A stretch of 32,976 nt of DNA from assembly GCA_015272195.1 (NCBI GenBank), contig JACYMC010000093.1, positions 1-32,976 on the forward strand. Reading direction: 5' to 3'. The notes beneath the pieces are model-generated. The model searched no databases. It had not been told where the DNA came from and worked only from the letters and a program-made list of their open reading frames with translations. The DNA is from Candidatus Sericytochromatia bacterium (lineage in GTDB: Bacteria; Cyanobacteriota; Sericytochromatia; UBA7694). Each line of letters begins with the position of its first letter. Position 1 is the first letter of the stretch. Below are positions 4,008-18,584 of the stretch, in pieces. The position numbers and the translations under genes were made by a program.

Positions 4008-4583
4008 ATGTCTGATCAAAACATCGTTCAGCAGGCCTGGCAGGCAGCCAGTGATAAACAGACCCAGGCTCAGGCTGATTATCCTGAACTGGGTTGTCTG
4101 AGTGGTTGCAATGATTGCTGTAAGCATCACGGTAGCCCCATGACCTATGCCCAGGAATGGGACTGCATAGCTGACTGGCTGGCGCAGCACCCACAGGTTT
4201 ATCAACAGGCCCGGATACAGTACACACAGCTCAAGCAAACCCTGCAGGTGCGTCTGGCAAAGTCTGAAGTCCCCACGATATCAGGAGCTTTATTTGAAGC
4301 GCCCTGTCCTTTTTTGCAGGATGAGCGCTGCGCTGTTTATCCCGTCCGGCCCATGACCTGCCGGGCTTTTGGCAATACTACGCTGGCACCGCATCCAAGC
4401 TCAGGTGAGCAGATATATACCTGTAATCCAGAAAAAGATCGCTGGGAGCAATTGCTGCCTATGCTCCAGGAACCCTGCGTTTTACCGGAGCGGACAGACT
4501 TATTTGCGCCCCTGGCCAACTGGGGGCAACCACGCTCACTGCTGTCGTGGCTTGAGAGGGCAATGCATGCTGACACCCGCTGA
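4008..4583 (+). CDS. YkgJ-family cysteine cluster protein (first of tandem pair)
   Basis: The 191-aa protein carries the signature of the YkgJ/CxxCC family. A first cluster CLSGCNDCC lies at residues 30-38, and a second, CPFL...RCAVYPVRPMTCR, at about 103-126. The cysteines probably bind zinc or an iron-sulfur centre; no biochemical role is established for most members. No signal peptide is seen, so it is probably cytoplasmic. It overlaps the next gene, a diverged paralogue, by 17 nt, which implies co-translation. It has no clear Shine-Dalgarno sequence. Confidence 0.88.
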   Translation: MSDQNIVQQAWQAASDKQTQAQADYPELGCLSGCNDCCKHHGSPMTYAQEWDCIADWLAQHPQVYQQARIQYTQLKQTLQVRLAKSEVPTISGALFEAPCPFLQDERCAVYPVRPMTCRAFGNTTLAPHPSSGEQIYTCNPEKDRWEQLLPMLQEPCVLPERTDLFAPLANWGQPRSLLSWLERAMHADTR

Positions 4584-5223
4584 ACAATATGACCGCCTGC
4601 CGCCAGAAACACAGCGTTTACTGGATGAAATCAATTTTTTAGCCGCTGAGTTGCGCGATCATCTTCTCCTGGAGCAATTCTATCTGGCGCTGAATGCATT
4701 AAACGCCAGACTGCAGCAGTTGCATCCAGAGATTGCCTGTGTGCAGGGTTGCAGTACCTGTTGTCAGACCCAGGGAAACCAGTGGCAGCTGCTGCCCATG
4801 GAGTGGAGCCTGATTCAGCGGGCCCTGCAGGCTTTACCTCAGGCGCAGCAGCTGCGTGTTCAGTCTCAGCTTCAGCAGCTGGCAGACCCGGCAAGCGGTT
4901 CGTCTTGCCCTTTGCTGCTGGACGGACGCTGTGCGGTTTATGCCTTTCGGCCCCTGGATTGCCGCCTGAAGGGCTACAGCTTTTCACAGGAGCGTTTGCT
5001 GCCCATGCAGCCTGCGCTGCCACAAGCTTTTAGCTGTTTGGCAGAGCAGCAGCGTATCCTGCATGACCTGAAGAGACCGGGACGCGCCCTTTTTTATATG
5101 TTCTTTCCCCAGCGGGAAGCCCTGCAGCAGGTCTTACAGCGTATTGAGCCCTCAGACGATCAGTCCCAAACCCTGGCGCACTGGCTTGAACAGCATTTTG
5201 AGGCTTTGCATTCAGCAGCTTAA
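4567..5223 (+). CDS. YkgJ-family cysteine cluster protein (second of tandem pair)
   Basis: This 218-aa paralogue of the upstream gene has the same two cysteine clusters: CVQGCSTCC at residues 58-66, and CPLL...RCAVYAFRPLDCR further on. The frame is open upstream to 4369, but that stretch lies inside the preceding gene. The ATG at 4567 begins the helical N-terminal region and gives a normal length. The tandem arrangement suggests that duplication produced the pair. A strong bidirectional terminator follows the stop. Function is unknown beyond likely metal or Fe-S binding. Confidence 0.88.
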   Translation: MLTPAEQYDRLPPETQRLLDEINFLAAELRDHLLLEQFYLALNALNARLQQLHPEIACVQGCSTCCQTQGNQWQLLPMEWSLIQRALQALPQAQQLRVQSQLQQLADPASGSSCPLLLDGRCAVYAFRPLDCRLKGYSFSQERLLPMQPALPQAFSCLAEQQRILHDLKRPGRALFYMFFPQREALQQVLQRIEPSDDQSQTLAHWLEQHFEALHSAA

Positions 5224-5255
5224 AAGCCCCTGCCTGTTCTCGGGCAGGGGCTTTT
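5222..5255. terminator. Strong bidirectional rho-independent terminator
   Basis: A perfect 13-bp stem (5222-5234 with 5243-5255) has an 8-nt loop. Its ends are AAAA and TTTT, so either strand reads a GC hairpin followed by U residues. It separates the converging YkgJ pair and the eight-repeat protein. Confidence 0.9.
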
Positions 5256-5281: not shown

Positions 5282-7528
5282 TTAAGGTGTTGCACCTGGT
5301 ACAGCTTTGGTGGCAATGATACGTTCATACATCATCATTTCAGTCGGACTGGGCTGATAACCCTGACGGTAACGGCTCAGCAGCTCAAGGGCCCACTGCA
5401 TTTCAGGGTCTGCTGCGTTGACGTTGATCATGACAGAGCCTGGTGCCGGCTGCGGAGCAGCAGGTTGGGGGGTATATACAGGCTGCTGAGGCGCCTGGGG
5501 CTGAACAGGCTGAACCTGCCCCTGACTTTGCTGCAGGCGCTCATAGATCTGCGTATAGCGGGCCATTTCTTCAGGCGTGGCGCTATAACCCTGCTGAACG
5601 GCGCTCATCAGCTGCTGGGCCCACTGAATATCCGCTGCGGAGGGCGGACCATTCTGAAGCGCTGGCTGCTGAATGGGTGCCTGAGGCGCAACGGGCTGAA
5701 CGGGAGCCTGGGGCATGGGTTGCTGGGGAGCCGGTTGTGGCTGAGCCACACCCTGCTGCTGATAGCGATTAAAAATATTGGTATACTGCGCCACTTCCTG
5801 ATCGCTGGGCTGATAACCTTCAAACTGCACGCGCTGCTGTAACTGCAGAGCCCAGTCGATTTCTGCCTGTGAAACCGGGCCTGTCTGGCCCGTCATGCTC
5901 GGCCCTGTGGGGCCGCTGACGCCATAAGTAGCCAGCTGCATCTGAATATCGTTGTAGCGCGCAATTTCAGCGGGTGTGGCCTGATAACCCTGAGACACGC
6001 GGCTCTCCAGACGACGGGCCCACTGCACATCATCCTGGCTTGCGCCCATGGGACGGCTGGGCTGTTGCGGGGCCTGTGTTGTTGTTGGCTGCGAAGGCTG
6101 AGCTTGTACGGGCTGCTGGGCCGCTGCTTCTTCAGCCGCACGCTGAGCTGCTTCCTGCTGGCTGATCTGGTAGCGGTTGTAGATGTCGGTATACCGTGCG
6201 ATATCCTGGTGTGTCGGGCGGTAGTTCTGTGTATCTACCCGGTGCTGCAGATCAATGGCCCACTGCAGTTCCTGCTGGCTGACGCTGTTGTCAATTTCAA
6301 CCGGCGCGGTCACACCAGGGTTGTAGGCGAGTGCTTCAGGCCGGCTGGAGCTGGCCGGCTGGGTGGGCTCGGCCTGTACCGGCTGGTTCTGATAACGGTT
6401 ATAGATATCGGTATAGCGGGCAGCCTCATCTGGCGTGGGCTGATAACCCCCGGCGATCCGGTTCTGCATATCCAGTGCCCACTCCAGTTCACCCTGGGTG
6501 ACCGGACGCAACTGACCCGAAGGCTGGGGGGCCGGCTGCTGCGGCTGAGCTGGGCCTGCAGCGTAGCGCTGCTGAATGTTTTCATACATGGCGGCTTCCT
6601 GTGGCGAGGGGCGGTAACCGCCCATGATCCGCTCCTGCATGGCGTAGGCCCAGTCCAGCTCCTGCTGGCTGACCTGACCACCAGCGGGTGCGACAGGCAC
6701 CTGCTGCTGAGGCGGTGCCACGGGTGGGGTATAGGTGGGCTGCTGTGGCGGCTGACCGGGCATCGGGATGCCGGGTACGGTGGGTGAGCCCTGGGGCGGA
6801 CGCATGCCTGGATTCTGTTGTGCTTGCTGACGGGCCTGGATTTCATCATAACGGGCCCGCTCCTGCGCGTTGGGCTGGTAACCAAAGTGCTGAATGCGGG
6901 TGGCCAGGTTCTGTGCCCACATCAGCTCTTCCTGGGTCACGGGCATGGGGTTGCCGCCGCCGGGCATCTGGGGGTTGAGCTGTTTGCTGACCACGGAGTT
7001 CAGCACGCTCTGCATCTGGGGTGTGGCAATGTCTGTAATAGCCGGGTTGCCCTTGCCGTCCAGAAAGCCATCGTTAATATTCATCATGCGCTTGAATTCT
7101 TTGACGGCTTCACCGGTGGCGTAGCCATAGACGCCGTTGACGTTGGCCTGTACACCGGCAATATTCAGTTTCTGCTGCAGATCCATCACGCGGGCTTCGT
7201 TGCGATCGCCCGGCTTGAGGGTCTGGGGATCGTGATCTACCTGTTGCTGAAAGGATTTGTAGGCGCGCAGGTTTTCATCAGAGCGATAGACATCGTTAAA
7301 GTACGACTTGACCTTGTCAAAAAAGCCAACCTCCACCGCAGGTGCAGGCGGTGTCATTGGACGGGGCGCTGAAAAGCTGGTCTGATCCACGCCATAGGAA
7401 GGTTGCTGGGGAAAGGGCTGGGGAGCGGGAGCATAGCCGGGTGCAGGCTGGGGATATGGGCTGCCCTGTACGGGAACAGAAGATGCCATGGGCACCTGTT
7501 GACCGTAATTGATGTTGTTATTGTACAT
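5282..7528 (-). CDS. Large repeat protein: peptidoglycan-binding-like domain plus eight WA..GY repeats
   Basis: The 748-aa protein has three parts. Residues 1-65 are rich in Pro, Gln and Tyr. Residues about 110-187 resemble a PG_binding_1 helical domain (DLQQKLN, NGVYGYATGEAVKEF, TDIATPQMQSVL). From about 198 to the C-terminus there are eight copies of an approximately 37-aa unit whose core is Q.EL.WA..LQ.R...GY.PTP.E.ARY..IYNRYQ, separated by Pro/Gln-rich linkers. I do not recognise this repeat as a named family. No signal peptide or TM helix is visible, so its location is unclear despite the peptidoglycan-like domain. A GTG at 7534 is possible, but the ATG at 7528 has the better distance (9 nt) from AAGG. 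It is a single-gene unit with its own -10 box and terminator. Confidence 0.88.
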   Translation of the reverse strand: MYNNNINYGQQVPMASSVPVQGSPYPQPAPGYAPAPQPFPQQPSYGVDQTSFSAPRPMTPPAPAVEVGFFDKVKSYFNDVYRSDENLRAYKSFQQQVDHDPQTLKPGDRNEARVMDLQQKLNIAGVQANVNGVYGYATGEAVKEFKRMMNINDGFLDGKGNPAITDIATPQMQSVLNSVVSKQLNPQMPGGGNPMPVTQEELMWAQNLATRIQHFGYQPNAQERARYDEIQARQQAQQNPGMRPPQGSPTVPGIPMPGQPPQQPTYTPPVAPPQQQVPVAPAGGQVSQQELDWAYAMQERIMGGYRPSPQEAAMYENIQQRYAAGPAQPQQPAPQPSGQLRPVTQGELEWALDMQNRIAGGYQPTPDEAARYTDIYNRYQNQPVQAEPTQPASSSRPEALAYNPGVTAPVEIDNSVSQQELQWAIDLQHRVDTQNYRPTHQDIARYTDIYNRYQISQQEAAQRAAEEAAAQQPVQAQPSQPTTTQAPQQPSRPMGASQDDVQWARRLESRVSQGYQATPAEIARYNDIQMQLATYGVSGPTGPSMTGQTGPVSQAEIDWALQLQQRVQFEGYQPSDQEVAQYTNIFNRYQQQGVAQPQPAPQQPMPQAPVQPVAPQAPIQQPALQNGPPSAADIQWAQQLMSAVQQGYSATPEEMARYTQIYERLQQSQGQVQPVQPQAPQQPVYTPQPAAPQPAPGSVMINVNAADPEMQWALELLSRYRQGYQPSPTEMMMYERIIATKAVPGATP

Positions 7529-7681: not shown

Positions 7682-8236
7682 TCAATGAACCCAGCGTACT
7701 TTCACCAGGGCTTTTTTCACTTCCTGCATTTCACCACAGTATGCCTGGAGTGCTTGCCTGGCAACGTCTTTCCATTCGAGCCCGTAATCCGCCAGTCCAA
7801 TGGTCGGAACGGGGGTATTGTGGCTGGAAATATTCAGTCCCAGATGAATCAGGCCTGACACTGGACTGACGGTGGCAATCGAAACCGAGAGCTTGGCCTC
7901 ACCGTCAAACAGATCGTCTCCGCTGCGCCGCAGGTTCTGACAGCCCGCTTTGCGGAGCAGATCCTGCAGTATGCTGGTAAAGAGGCGCTGGCGCAGAATC
8001 ATGCTGTCGAGCGGCACCTGAAAGTGCTCGATTAAAAAGTGCAGCATGTTTTCGCTGTAAATGGGGGCGTTCTCCTGGACATCTGCCAGATCCACCATTT
8101 CGCTCAGTCTGACATCGCAAGAACCGTGAAAAGCGATGATGGCGTCACCGCTCTGACCCGTTTGCTGGTAGATCCAGTGCGATCGCAGCGCGTGGCCGGT
8201 ATAGCTCTGGCGCTCTTCAAGTAAAAAATGCTGCAT
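7682..8236 (-). CDS. DUF366 family protein
   Basis: The 184-aa protein matches the DUF366 pattern along its full length. Visible elements are YTG..LRSHW near the start, GDAIIAFHG.CDV, MVDLADV, NAPIYSENMLHFLIEHF, RSGDDLFDGEAKLSVSIAT and SPVSGLIHLGLNI. The family occurs in bacteria and archaea and has no assigned function. No TM or signal is seen, so it is cytoplasmic. A GAGG about 8 nt before the ATG supports the start. It stands alone, divergent from the SLH-barrel gene. Confidence 0.88.
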   Translation of the reverse strand: MQHFLLEERQSYTGHALRSHWIYQQTGQSGDAIIAFHGSCDVRLSEMVDLADVQENAPIYSENMLHFLIEHFQVPLDSMILRQRLFTSILQDLLRKAGCQNLRRSGDDLFDGEAKLSVSIATVSPVSGLIHLGLNISSHNTPVPTIGLADYGLEWKDVARQALQAYCGEMQEVKKALVKVRWVH

Positions 8237-8416: not shown

Positions 8417-10735
8417 TTGAGTGTGCTGATTCGATTTGGGACTGCAATACTTGTCTGTATGGGCATGATTTTACCTGTATGGGCACAGGCTTATCCTTTT
8501 AAAGACGTGGATTATAATCACCCGGCATACAAAGAGATCTATGTGATGCAAGATCATAAAATCATGTCTGGTATGACCTATGAAAGCTTTCGTGGTGATC
8601 TGCCGCTGAATCGCTTTCAGCTGGCTGAAGCACTGGATGCTTTACTGGGTAACCGGCGGGTTCCCCGCAGCATTGTGATTATTCTGACCGATATTAATCC
8701 CAACAATCAGCAGTACAAAAAGGTTGAGCGCGTTCTGCAGGCCAACCTGATCGAAATGGACAGCGGCAGCTTTAACGGTTTGCGCAAAGTCACACGTTAT
8801 GAGCTGGCCCAGTCACTGCATCGCTTGCTTGAGTATACGGGAGCCACGCCGCCTTTGCCCCGCGAAAAAGAAATTAAATTCCGTGATATTCAGCCCAGAT
8901 ACGAAGATTCAGTGTATCAGTTTGCCAATGTCTGGCAGATCACCCAGGGTTACCCTGATGGTTTGTTTCGGGGTGACCGTGAAGTCAGTCGCTATGATGC
9001 TGCCGTGATGCTCTCCAAAGTGGCCAGCCTGATTTACGAAGATATCCGGGCAGACCTGGCCAGACCGGCACCTTCGCCCAATATGGAAACCCTTGTGTCT
9101 TCGAGTGTTTCACCAGATCGGCCGGCCACATCAACACCTGCTTCAGCTGCACCGCTGGATAATGTCAGCGCGTTGGAAGAGATGCTTAAAAAAGAGGCTG
9201 CTGCCCGCGTGGCCAGTCCTTCACCGGCAGCTTCTGCACCACCATCACCCAGCCCTAAACCCAGCGTAACACCTACACCTGCGCCGCGTCCCAGCCCCAG
9301 CGTGAGCGCTCAGCCCAGTGCGAAGCCTTCGGTCCAGCCCAGTGCCAAACCCTCAACCCAGCCCAGCGCGAAGCCTTCATCACAACCCAGTACCAAGCCT
9401 TCGGCCAGCACAGATCCGCGTTTAGCGGAGCTGGAAGCTGCACTTCAGGGCAAGCCGACACCCGCGCCCAGTCTGGACCCCAAAAAACTGGGTGATCTTT
9501 CGGCGCTTTTTGGTGATAAGCCCTCTCCCAGCCCCAGTGTGAGTGCCAAGCCCAGCGCGAAGCCTTCGGCTCAGCCCAGTACCAAACCCTCAGTGAAGCC
9601 TTCGGCCAAGCCGAGCGCAAAGCCCTCTGTCAAACCCAGTGCGAAGCCTTCGGCGAGTCCCAGTGCAAAACCCTCTGCTAAACCCAGTGCAAAGCCTTCG
9701 GTCAAGCCGAGCGCAAAACCTTCACCCAGCCCCTCGGTGAGTCCAAAGCCCAGCGCCAGTCCTTCAGTTACACCCACGCCCAAACCGATCAGCGGAGACA
9801 CCCTTGAAGAGTTGGAGCGTCGCTTCCAGGAGTTGCGCACTGCGCCGACACCCAGTGCCACACCTTCGCCTTCAGCTATCGCAACACCGACGCCGCGTCC
9901 GACACCCAGGCCTGAGCAGCCGGATTCGCTGGTTGATATTCCTTTGCCAACACCCCAGCCTTCAGCTATGGTAACCCCCACACCTTTACCACAGGCTACC
10001 ACCCCACGCTCCCCTGTTTTGTCGCAGTCATGGCAGCCGCCTCTGCGTAGCCGCATGCTGCTGCTGGGCAATTACCGTGCCCTCTATGAGGAGCGGGTGC
10101 CGCCCAGCGTGATGCAGGCCTTGCAGATGCCAGCCAGTCTGCAGAATATTTCAGGTGACGCCGGTATTTCAGCACATCTGAACTCCTTGTTCTGGTTTGG
10201 AGAGCCGGGTACGACCCTGGGCAATCTGGGCCTGGGCGTGGATCTGGCGACCATGGGTGGCATCACCTTTGATGGTGTCAATCTGACCGATATGATCTGG
10301 GCTGATCTGGCCCTGCTGTACAAAGTGGTCAGCGGCCCCAGCTTTGATCTGGCCCTGGGTCTGGATGGCTACTTCCGCTATACCGACAGCAGCAATGATC
10401 CGCGCAGTAACTATTTCCAGGCCGCCCGCAACTATATGGGTTTTGGCGTGCCTATCAAAGCGGCTTATCGCGTGATAGAGCCCCTGACGCTGGAGCTGAC
10501 CGTCGCACCTCACTATGTGATGCAGGATTTGAGCAATATTGCTTTGCCGGAAATTCTACCGCTCAATCGTTTTGATACCCAGATTCAATTTTTGATCAAC
10601 TGGGAAGCTTTTGCGATCGGGCAGAGCAAAATATCTCTGAATCTGGGTTATCAGGGCCTGATGCTCTTTGACCTGGGATCAGAAGGCAGTGAGATGATGC
10701 ATGGCGTCTTGTTTGGCGCCGGCTATCATTTTTGA
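8417..10735 (+). CDS. SLH-domain protein with Lys-Pro-Ser linker and C-terminal outer-membrane beta-barrel
   Basis: The 772-aa protein starts with a signal peptide (residues 1-25, cleavage after WAQA). Three SLH domains follow (about 26-80, 85-140, 150-208), with the typical YPFKDV, FRDI, ITQGYPDGLFRGD and (T/S)RYELA/D elements, which in other diderms bind peptidoglycan secondary polymers. Residues about 215-540 are a low-complexity linker of KPSAKPS-type repeats, interrupted by short amphipathic helices such as LEELERRFQEL. Residues about 545-772 alternate polar and hydrophobic strands and end in GAGYHF, the terminal aromatic expected of an outer-membrane barrel. The layout recalls SLH-porins of cyanobacteria and OmpM of Negativicutes, which tie outer membrane to wall, but the barrel is not an obvious OprB porin. 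The TTG start fits AAAGGTGG 8 nt upstream; GTG at 8423 is the alternative. Confidence 0.87.
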   Translation: MSVLIRFGTAILVCMGMILPVWAQAYPFKDVDYNHPAYKEIYVMQDHKIMSGMTYESFRGDLPLNRFQLAEALDALLGNRRVPRSIVIILTDINPNNQQYKKVERVLQANLIEMDSGSFNGLRKVTRYELAQSLHRLLEYTGATPPLPREKEIKFRDIQPRYEDSVYQFANVWQITQGYPDGLFRGDREVSRYDAAVMLSKVASLIYEDIRADLARPAPSPNMETLVSSSVSPDRPATSTPASAAPLDNVSALEEMLKKEAAARVASPSPAASAPPSPSPKPSVTPTPAPRPSPSVSAQPSAKPSVQPSAKPSTQPSAKPSSQPSTKPSASTDPRLAELEAALQGKPTPAPSLDPKKLGDLSALFGDKPSPSPSVSAKPSAKPSAQPSTKPSVKPSAKPSAKPSVKPSAKPSASPSAKPSAKPSAKPSVKPSAKPSPSPSVSPKPSASPSVTPTPKPISGDTLEELERRFQELRTAPTPSATPSPSAIATPTPRPTPRPEQPDSLVDIPLPTPQPSAMVTPTPLPQATTPRSPVLSQSWQPPLRSRMLLLGNYRALYEERVPPSVMQALQMPASLQNISGDAGISAHLNSLFWFGEPGTTLGNLGLGVDLATMGGITFDGVNLTDMIWADLALLYKVVSGPSFDLALGLDGYFRYTDSSNDPRSNYFQAARNYMGFGVPIKAAYRVIEPLTLELTVAPHYVMQDLSNIALPEILPLNRFDTQIQFLINWEAFAIGQSKISLNLGYQGLMLFDLGSEGSEMMHGVLFGAGYHF
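9286..9765 (+). repeat. Low-complexity KPSAKPS coding repeats
   Basis: Degenerate 12-nt units of the kind CCCAGTGCGAAG/CCTTCGGTC recur through the linker of the SLH-barrel gene, in two blocks separated by a short helical spacer (about 9410-9520). They also create long antisense open frames that are not genes. Confidence 0.8.
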
Positions 10736-17049: not shown

Positions 17050-17613
17050 ATGGGTATCAAATCCGACCGCTGGATTCGCACCATGGCCCAGGAGCACGGC
17101 ATGATTTCGCCGTTTGAAGAGAAGCTGGTCTGCAAAGGCAAGATTTCATATGGTCTTTCATCCTATGGTTATGATCTGCGCGTCAGCAATCGCTTTAAGA
17201 TTTTTACCAATGTCAACAATACGGTAGTCGATCCCAAGGCCTTTGATGCCAACTCTTTCATCGATTTTGAAGGGGATATCTGTACCGTACCCCCCAACTC
17301 TTTTGCCCTGGCCACTTCGGTGGAATATTTTAAGATTCCTGACAATGTCATCACCATCTGCCTGGGCAAGAGCACTTATGCGCGCTGCGGCATTATTGTG
17401 AATGTCACCCCTTTTGAGCCCGGCTGGGAGGGTTTTGTGACCCTTGAAATTTCCAATACCACGCCCCTGCCCTGCCGCATTTACGCCAATGAAGGCTTGT
17501 GCCAGGTGCTCTTTTTTGAAGGCGATGAGGCCTGCGAAACCACTTACCGCAGCCGGGAAGGCAAGTATCAGGCCCAGACGGGTATTGTGCTGCCGCGTAT
17601 TCTGGAAGCCTGA
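17050..17613 (+). CDS. dcd: dCTP deaminase
   Basis: The 187-aa enzyme deaminates dCTP to dUTP, the main route to dTTP precursors in many bacteria. Family hallmarks are plain: [10 protein letters not shown] at the start, [12 protein letters not shown], the nucleotide-binding [16 protein letters not shown], catalytic Glu in [11 protein letters not shown], and [12 protein letters not shown]. Length and sequence fit the monofunctional trimeric Dcd rather than the bifunctional dCTP deaminase/dUTPase. A GAGGTAA precedes the ATG. Its TGA overlaps the ATG of the next gene (ATGA), so the two are translationally coupled. Thymidylate kinase, which acts later in the same pathway, ends this operon. Confidence 0.97.
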
Positions 17614-18584
17614 TGCATCCCCAGATCCGTGCCGTGCTGGAGCAACAGCGTTTTTTTAAGCTGATCTGTGGCGCCAGCTACCGCAATACGGCCTTTATCA
17701 GCACCCTGGCCCGGATTTTTGCCAGTGCCGGCGCCCATGTGATTGATGTGGGGGCCCGGCCTGAGCTGGTTGAAGCGGTCAAACAGGGGCTGGCGGCGGC
17801 TGAGTTGCCCCATCCCGATCTGCCGTTGATCATGGTCAGCGTGGGCGTCAGTCAAGATGCCCATTTTTTACGGGTCAAAAAAGATGCCTCCCGCTGTGTA
17901 ACACATGGTTATTGTGCCAACGCCTGCCCGCACGGGGTTTTTGTGCCTCGACCCGAAGGGGGGCATGATCTGCGCCTTGAAAACTGCCTGGGCTGTGACC
18001 ACTGTGTGATTGCCTGCCCTGAAGATGCGCTGACCCTGGTGCCCCGCGAACCTTTGGCTGAGCTGCAAAGCCTTCTGGGCGACTGTTTTGATGCCGGTGC
18101 ACGGGCAGTCGAGGTGCACACCGGTCATGGTGATCGTGAGGAGCTGCAAACCCTTTTACAGGCCCTCGCTCCCTGGCGGCAGCAGATTGACCTGCTGGCC
18201 TTCAGTCTGGGGGCCCATGGCCAGAGCGACGCTGAGCTGCTGGCTCTGGCCCGTGATCTTGAAACCTTGGCGGGCCCCGACATTCTGATTCAGGCCGATG
18301 GCCAGCCTATTTCGGGTCGCAAGGGCAAAAAGTCCACCTTGCCCTGTTTAAATCTGGCGCAGTACTTGCGCCAGGCAGGTCTGAGTGCGTATATTCAAGT
18401 GTCAGGAGGCACCAATAATCTGACCGGCCAACTGGCCCGTGAATTAGCGGTTCCGATTCATGGGGTGGGTATGGGAAGCTTTGCCCGTAAGCACCTGGAG
18501 CTGGAACCTGATGAGCCTGTCTTGAGTCCTGAACGTTATGCCCTTGCCCTGGATCGCGCCCGCGAGCTGGTACACTCAGTTTAG
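17613..18584 (+). CDS. ldpA: LdpA-like iron-sulfur protein
   Basis: The 323-aa protein resembles cyanobacterial LdpA, an Fe-S protein that affects circadian period according to light and redox in Synechococcus. The N-terminal FFKLICGASYRN and the AGAHVIDVGA..E element (residues 14-60) match that family. A ferredoxin-like insert follows: Cys at 95, 101 and 105 (last followed by Pro), then a canonical CLGCDHCVIACP at 125-136. The first site shows only three of four expected Cys, so its cluster may differ. The C-terminal half (LdpA_C-like) has KGKKSTLPCLN, QVSGGTNNLTG and GVGMGSFARKHL. It overlaps dcd by 1 nt and is 11 nt before ycf45. The circadian role is unlikely to carry over directly; redox sensing is the safer inference. 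Confidence 0.82.
   Translation: MHPQIRAVLEQQRFFKLICGASYRNTAFISTLARIFASAGAHVIDVGARPELVEAVKQGLAAAELPHPDLPLIMVSVGVSQDAHFLRVKKDASRCVTHGYCANACPHGVFVPRPEGGHDLRLENCLGCDHCVIACPEDALTLVPREPLAELQSLLGDCFDAGARAVEVHTGHGDREELQTLLQALAPWRQQIDLLAFSLGAHGQSDAELLALARDLETLAGPDILIQADGQPISGRKGKKSTLPCLNLAQYLRQAGLSAYIQVSGGTNNLTGQLARELAVPIHGVGMGSFARKHLELEPDEPVLSPERYALALDRARELVHSV

Follow-up and report, generated by a model that had tools for sequence, protein, structure and literature searches.

What might a protein do that repeats a unit of about 37 aa eight times behind a single peptidoglycan-binding-like domain and lacks an export signal? The gene that raises this question lies in a 32,976-nucleotide stretch of DNA (the window), which is part of the 4.17-Mb draft genome (G000, contig C15) of a Candidatus Sericytochromatia bacterium. 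The original prediction assigned the repeat to no named family, expected two short helices per unit, and considered a beads-on-a-string scaffold. The gene indeed occupies positions 5282–7528, as had been stated; its strand, previously left open, is minus (Table 1).

Table 1. Parts of the repeat gene and its neighbours (positions in the window; residues of the 748-aa protein)
Feature	Positions	Strand	Basis or remark
748-aa repeat protein (scaffold candidate)	5282..7528	-	start codon ATG at 7528, stop at 5282; five further genomes of the order have orthologs
Residues 1-65, disordered, nearly uncharged Pro/Gln/Asn tail	7334..7528	-	pLDDT < 50; charged fraction 0.03
Residues 67-84, amphipathic helix VGFFDKVKSYFNDVYRSD	7277..7330	-	helix 69-77 in model; hydrophobic moment 0.68
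Residues 85-184, PG_binding_1-fold bead, Pfam core 112-157	6977..7276	-	Pfam, Foldseek and PDB profile matches
Hairpin unit 1, residues 196-237	6818..6943	-	repeat profile
Hairpin unit 2, residues 285-326	6551..6676	-	repeat profile
Hairpin unit 3, residues 342-383	6380..6505	-	repeat profile; unit modelled at pLDDT 95
Hairpin unit 4, residues 415-456	6161..6286	-	repeat profile
Hairpin unit 5, residues 495-536	5921..6046	-	repeat profile
Hairpin unit 6, residues 551-592	5753..5878	-	repeat profile
Hairpin unit 7, residues 628-669	5522..5647	-	repeat profile
Hairpin unit 8, residues 704-745, C-terminal	5294..5419	-	stays last unit in complete orthologs; distant copy C-terminal in a protein of another order (G007)
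Inverted repeat AAAAGCCCCTGCC..GGCAGGGGCTTTT, probable shared terminator	5221..5254	.	sequence and scan
DUF366 protein, conserved neighbour	7682..8236	-	Pfam E 2.6e-62
SLH-domain envelope protein, conserved neighbour	8417..10735	+	Pfam E 1.1e-9; synteny

A plausible ribosome-binding site precedes the ATG, and an in-frame TAG lies just upstream of it (TAG GTG CGC ATG), which rules out a longer N-terminus and means that no signal peptide was overlooked. The protein carries no Sec signal, and the original remark on the lack of an export signal is correct, although the protein might leave by another route. Beyond the stop codon lies a palindrome with T-runs, so the repeat gene is probably a single-gene unit. 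The DUF366 and SLH genes adjoin it in four other genomes of the family. The SLH protein has a long Pro/Ser/Lys linker of the PSAKPSAKPS type and, C-terminally, a possible outer-membrane barrel. Elsewhere in the window are a tandem pair of neighbouring CxxCxxCC (PF03692) proteins (4008–5223) and an LdpA-like protein (17613–18584), found here in a non-photosynthetic lineage; its top match is to LdpA, a circadian clock protein of cyanobacteria, but at 159 bits falls short of the cut-off of 450.

That the protein contains eight units is borne out by a jackknife, in which profiles of seven units recovered the held-out eighth in each of eight tests (E from 4e-12 to 2.5e-23); 1000 shuffled versions of the protein scored at most 8.4 bits against the unit profile. 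The units are spaced 56–89 aa apart, have a mean pairwise identity of 41% (range 26–56%), and are separated by Pro/Gln linkers (24% Pro, 21% Gln), as originally described. The motif once thought to be constant is partly so: ‘WA’ is present in all eight units (W at residues 204, 293, 350, 423, 503, 559, 636 and 712), whereas ‘GY’ becomes NY in unit 4, and only units 3 and 4 have the exact ending YNRYQ, with FNRYQ in unit 6. The turn P is replaced by A in units 5 and 7. The consensus of 97 units, drawn from many proteins, is [ST]QxE[LI]xWAxxLEx[RK][VI]xxGYxP[TS]xxExxxYxxIxxR[LY], with W (99%), an acid at position 6 (98%), Y31 (98%), A (97%), E27 (97%), P23 (88%), G20 (87%) and I34 (87%) conserved. 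Hydrophobic positions 7, 10, 13 and 17, together with 31, 34 and 38, make up the faces of two amphipathic helices, and each hairpin helix starts with S/T-x-x-E, which we take to be a capping box.

Structure prediction agrees with the expectation of two helices joined by a GY.P turn. For unit 3, supplied with 54 aligned units, AlphaFold2 returns a helical hairpin (pLDDT 95.3, pTM 0.69) with helices at 4–18 and 25–39 (pLDDT 95). In the whole-protein model, built from five aligned orthologs, the units reach a pLDDT of about 70–85, the linkers stay below 50, and the pTM is 0.25. The 748-aa protein is, on this prediction, a set of ordered beads without a fixed mutual arrangement, and the beads-on-a-string layout is reproduced at the level of a model. 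The amphipathic helix ahead of the beads is short and of low mean hydrophobicity, which weighs against the envelope scaffold favoured below.

The view that the unit belongs to no named family also stands, as it has no match in Pfam, NCBIfam, PHROG or the PDB sequences. Hits of single units to Pfam/NCBIfam entries (DUF7785, YozD, ribulokinase and PPR) fell below cut-off, differed from unit to unit, and were rejected. A profile search of solved-structure sequences with the unit gave E-values of 0.18 and 0.67 at best, and Foldseek with the single-hairpin model gave no match (best E 8.4), a hairpin of 42 residues being too small for significance. Phages, plasmids and viral contigs contained no relatives (the viral contigs were scanned with patterns of the N-terminal domain), a defence-system search found none, and the literature yielded no paper describing the hairpin repeat or type III secretion in the class Sericytochromatia. 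The hairpin unit is a new domain family, without an entry in the libraries searched and with a confidently predicted fold.

The domain that precedes the units had been called peptidoglycan-binding-like, and rightly so. It matches PF01471 (PG_binding_1) over residues 112–157 with an E-value of 3.2e-7 and 30.9 bits (curated cut-off, 23). Foldseek relates it with a probability of 1.0 to the PG_binding_1 structures 4xxt, CtpB and 5tv7 (rmsd 1.6 over 78 columns to 4xxt); the Foldseek E-values are weak because the query was a long, mostly disordered model. Profile matches in the PDB include an endolysin and SleB.

Carriers of the unit were gathered by profile search in 18 genomes of the class, seven of them in this order; the genomes are drafts or MAGs throughout, with gene starts set by eye or by the longest frame. 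The relatives that have names, Candidatus Sericytochromatia MAGs and UBA7694, come from the non-photosynthetic sister groups of Cyanobacteria. All seven genomes of the order were positive: this one has 28 copies of the unit, spread over at least eight proteins, and the six others, from two families, have 5–27 copies each. Among the starts that could be assigned, no carrier in the order has a Sec signal. Because it is found on many other proteins of the order, the unit looks like a shared scaffold part rather than a curiosity of one gene.

Seven architectures were distinguished: (i) the PG_binding bead followed by eight units (11 in one genome), the type of the 748-aa gene; (ii) four to seven units with an amphipathic helix, for instance PGFMDRLKNAWGALWE, at the end; (iii) two units with a Gly-rich hydrophobic domain; (iv) LysM, one unit, a hydrophobic segment and a C-terminal domain shared with proteins of ~1100 aa; (v) one unit with a different Gly-rich hydrophobic domain; (vi) five or six units in a compact array; and (vii) one unit with a transmembrane helix. 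Array proteins across the order have 4–11 units. In family (i), units 1–8 come in much the same order in different genera; hence the array is old, and separate constraints seem to act on its positions. Families (i) and (ii) have a common N-terminal motif, Y.[SQ]Q[VI]P, recognized by eye. In the LysM proteins, the unit precedes the hydrophobic segment in one genome and follows it in another, as expected of a mobile module. The C-terminal domain common to the LysM carriers and the ~1100-aa proteins (L069, L082, L083, L080 and L116) is about 170 aa long and undescribed. Two more Gly-rich hydrophobic proteins, with no evident Sec signal, adjoin a single-unit carrier (L071:8736-10111).

Outside the order, the unit is rare. 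Among the 11 other class genomes, only G007 matches it, and weakly (E 4e-4). The G007 protein (600 aa, from another order of the class, without a Sec signal) contains a clear relative of the 748-aa protein's PG_binding bead (E 9.5e-39, which is optimistic because this sequence is one of the six profile rows; Pfam independently gives 27.2 bits), a sub-threshold LysM match, and a divergent final unit that aligns with unit 8. A profile search of 41 other genomes of the phylum found the unit in none, and a scan of 84,980 species with two peptide patterns added one case, a Bacteroidetes MAG. Its protein (L089:7920-9242) has seven units behind a clear Sec signal (by eye), of which units 1–3 are mostly like those of family (i) and units 4–7 like those of family (ii). 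It is the sole carrier in its own genome and among 396 Bacteroidota genomes, and its gene adjoins a low-GC restriction-modification island in an otherwise ordinary Bacteroidetes neighbourhood. Horizontal transfer would be the simplest reading of these sequences.

The PG_binding bead has a distribution of its own. The family (i) bead occurs once per genome in the order (one draft genome gave none), and the same bead is found 2–17 times per genome in other families of the class (f4–f7). The f4–f7 proteins (L150–L157) have a disordered tail, an amphipathic helix (e.g. NVLTSIWNGLVSAVKTLFSWLGHLF) and one to four PG_binding beads on Pro-rich linkers, and they have no Sec signal. Apart from one recurring secreted protein, the PG_binding-array genes of the sister families have no consistent functional neighbour. 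Since sister families have similar proteins with PG_binding arrays, the array beads have apparently been swapped. One design is common to the class, and the hairpin became its repeated bead in this order; we infer the direction of this change. The exchange of a PG_binding bead for a hairpin, with the architecture staying similar, clearly exemplifies module replacement.

Taken together, we favour the interpretation of the 748-aa protein as a multivalent scaffold of beads on a string, to which we give a probability of about one half. The disordered, uncharged tail, followed by the amphipathic helix and the PG_binding_1 bead, would place the protein at the cell envelope, and eight small alpha-hairpin beads would follow on flexible Pro/Gln tethers. 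Each hairpin is predicted to consist of two N-capped helices joined by a Gly-Tyr-x-Pro turn and packed via invariant Trp/Ala/Leu and Tyr/Ile. The likeliest targets of the hairpins would be a common partner or one another, given that the unit is single on many proteins and arrayed on three or four scaffold types. Arrays on few proteins, singles on many, flexible linkers, and amphipathic, hydrophobic or wall-related parts give the set the look of a scaffold with clients. Amphipathic helices recur near the N-terminus in family (i), at the C-terminus in family (ii), and ahead of the PG_binding arrays of the sister families, and the retention of the SLH envelope gene as a neighbour supports a scaffold at the envelope. 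Where the protein acts is the least secure part of this reading. The cytoplasmic side is suggested by the missing Sec signals in the order and by two carriers whose units are cytoplasmic by the positive-inside rule. Against this, a cytoplasmic scaffold leaves unexplained the PG_binding_1 bead and the LysM relatives, which normally act outside the cytoplasm, and the Bacteroidetes protein, the only relative outside the class, shows through its Sec signal that the unit can work outside it. How Sec-less PG_binding and LysM proteins reach the cell wall, or why they need not, is the puzzle that this locus raises. Nearly all sampled members of the order have tens of copies of the unit per genome (five in the poorest), and through it about ten proteins per genome that otherwise lack annotation become one candidate system.

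One answer to that puzzle would be export through a flagellar-type (type III) gate, after which the bead would grip peptidoglycan and the hairpin array would form a surface or wall-bound filament or adhesin. Here, PG_binding_1 without a Sec signal, the LysM domains of relatives (one protein combines PG_binding_1 with a weak LysM match), and the Sec signal of the Bacteroidetes relative all fit, as do FlhA-family genes in 17 of 18 class genomes, a pair of FliP and a pair of FliF genes in all five genomes checked, and a FlgE/F/G-like gene (by eye) that divergently adjoins one carrier in two genera. The uncharged Ser/Thr/Asn/Gln/Pro N-termini appeared to fit as well, but the linkers are nearly as uncharged; the composition of the tail is thus not specific for type III export, and we rejected it as proof. 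Moreover, no carrier lies within any flagellar operon seen in the analysis, and in two carriers (L120 and L122) the unit flanks a transmembrane helix on its positively charged, cytoplasmic side. We hold this export route to be a possible, if unlikely, alternative. There are two flagellar-type export systems per class genome (noted at G000:C62 and G000:C117, L162 and L163, and at G008:C15, L176 and L177), most genomes encoding two full-length FlhA proteins; C-terminal fragments of FlhA also occur as separate ORFs. One of the two systems is a flagellar cluster that reads, by eye, as fliF, fliG, a hook gene and chemotaxis genes.

The bead exchange also admits a reading in which the hairpin is itself the binder of a glycan or cell-wall ligand and took over from the PG_binding beads of the sister families, making the protein a multivalent wall binder with no protein partner. 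The same tail and amphipathic-helix design does bear two to four PG_binding beads in those families, and in the order a single PG_binding bead is accompanied by many hairpins. Yet some proteins with the unit have no wall-related domain, in a membrane protein the unit faces the cytoplasm, and arrays are common in scaffolds too; we consider this reading improbable. A chance or low-complexity repeat without a folded unit, for which the Pro-, Gln- and Ala-rich composition might speak, deserves practically no credence, being contradicted by the jackknife E-values (to 2.5e-23), the near invariance of W, A, E and Y in 97 units, and the unit pLDDT of 95.

The multivalent scaffold, our preferred reading, could be extended to an undescribed network in which array scaffolds and single-hairpin clients are exported through the flagellar gate and assemble on the wall, replacing an older network of PG_binding beads. 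This extension is quite unlikely in our estimation; if true, an order of uncultured Cyanobacteria relatives would have a multivalent network joined by one small hairpin module.

Several known systems resemble parts of this one. Like other PF01471 proteins, the 748-aa protein has a PG_binding_1 fold in its N-terminal bead; unlike them, it lacks a Sec signal and an enzyme domain, and the bead is part of a scaffold-like protein. With the alpha-hairpin repeats (TPR, PPR, HAT and Sel1), the unit shares a helix-turn-helix of 34–42 aa, and its G-x-x-P turn resembles, by eye, the turn of PPR. There is, however, no family-level match to TPR, PPR or HAT (a single unit out of 54 reaches PPR, at E 0.096, and Pfam gives none), and the units are parted by disordered linkers instead of forming the stacked superhelix of a solenoid (pTM 0.25). 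The multi-PG_binding proteins of other Sericytochromatia families are alike in their tail, amphipathic helix, Pro-rich-linked beads and missing Sec signal, but their beads are PG_binding folds and not hairpins. By analogy, cohesin/dockerin-type scaffoldins and SH3-type multivalent scaffolds also place module arrays on few proteins and singles on many; their fold is unrelated, and in the order described here arrays and singles carry the same module, through which the proteins may bind.
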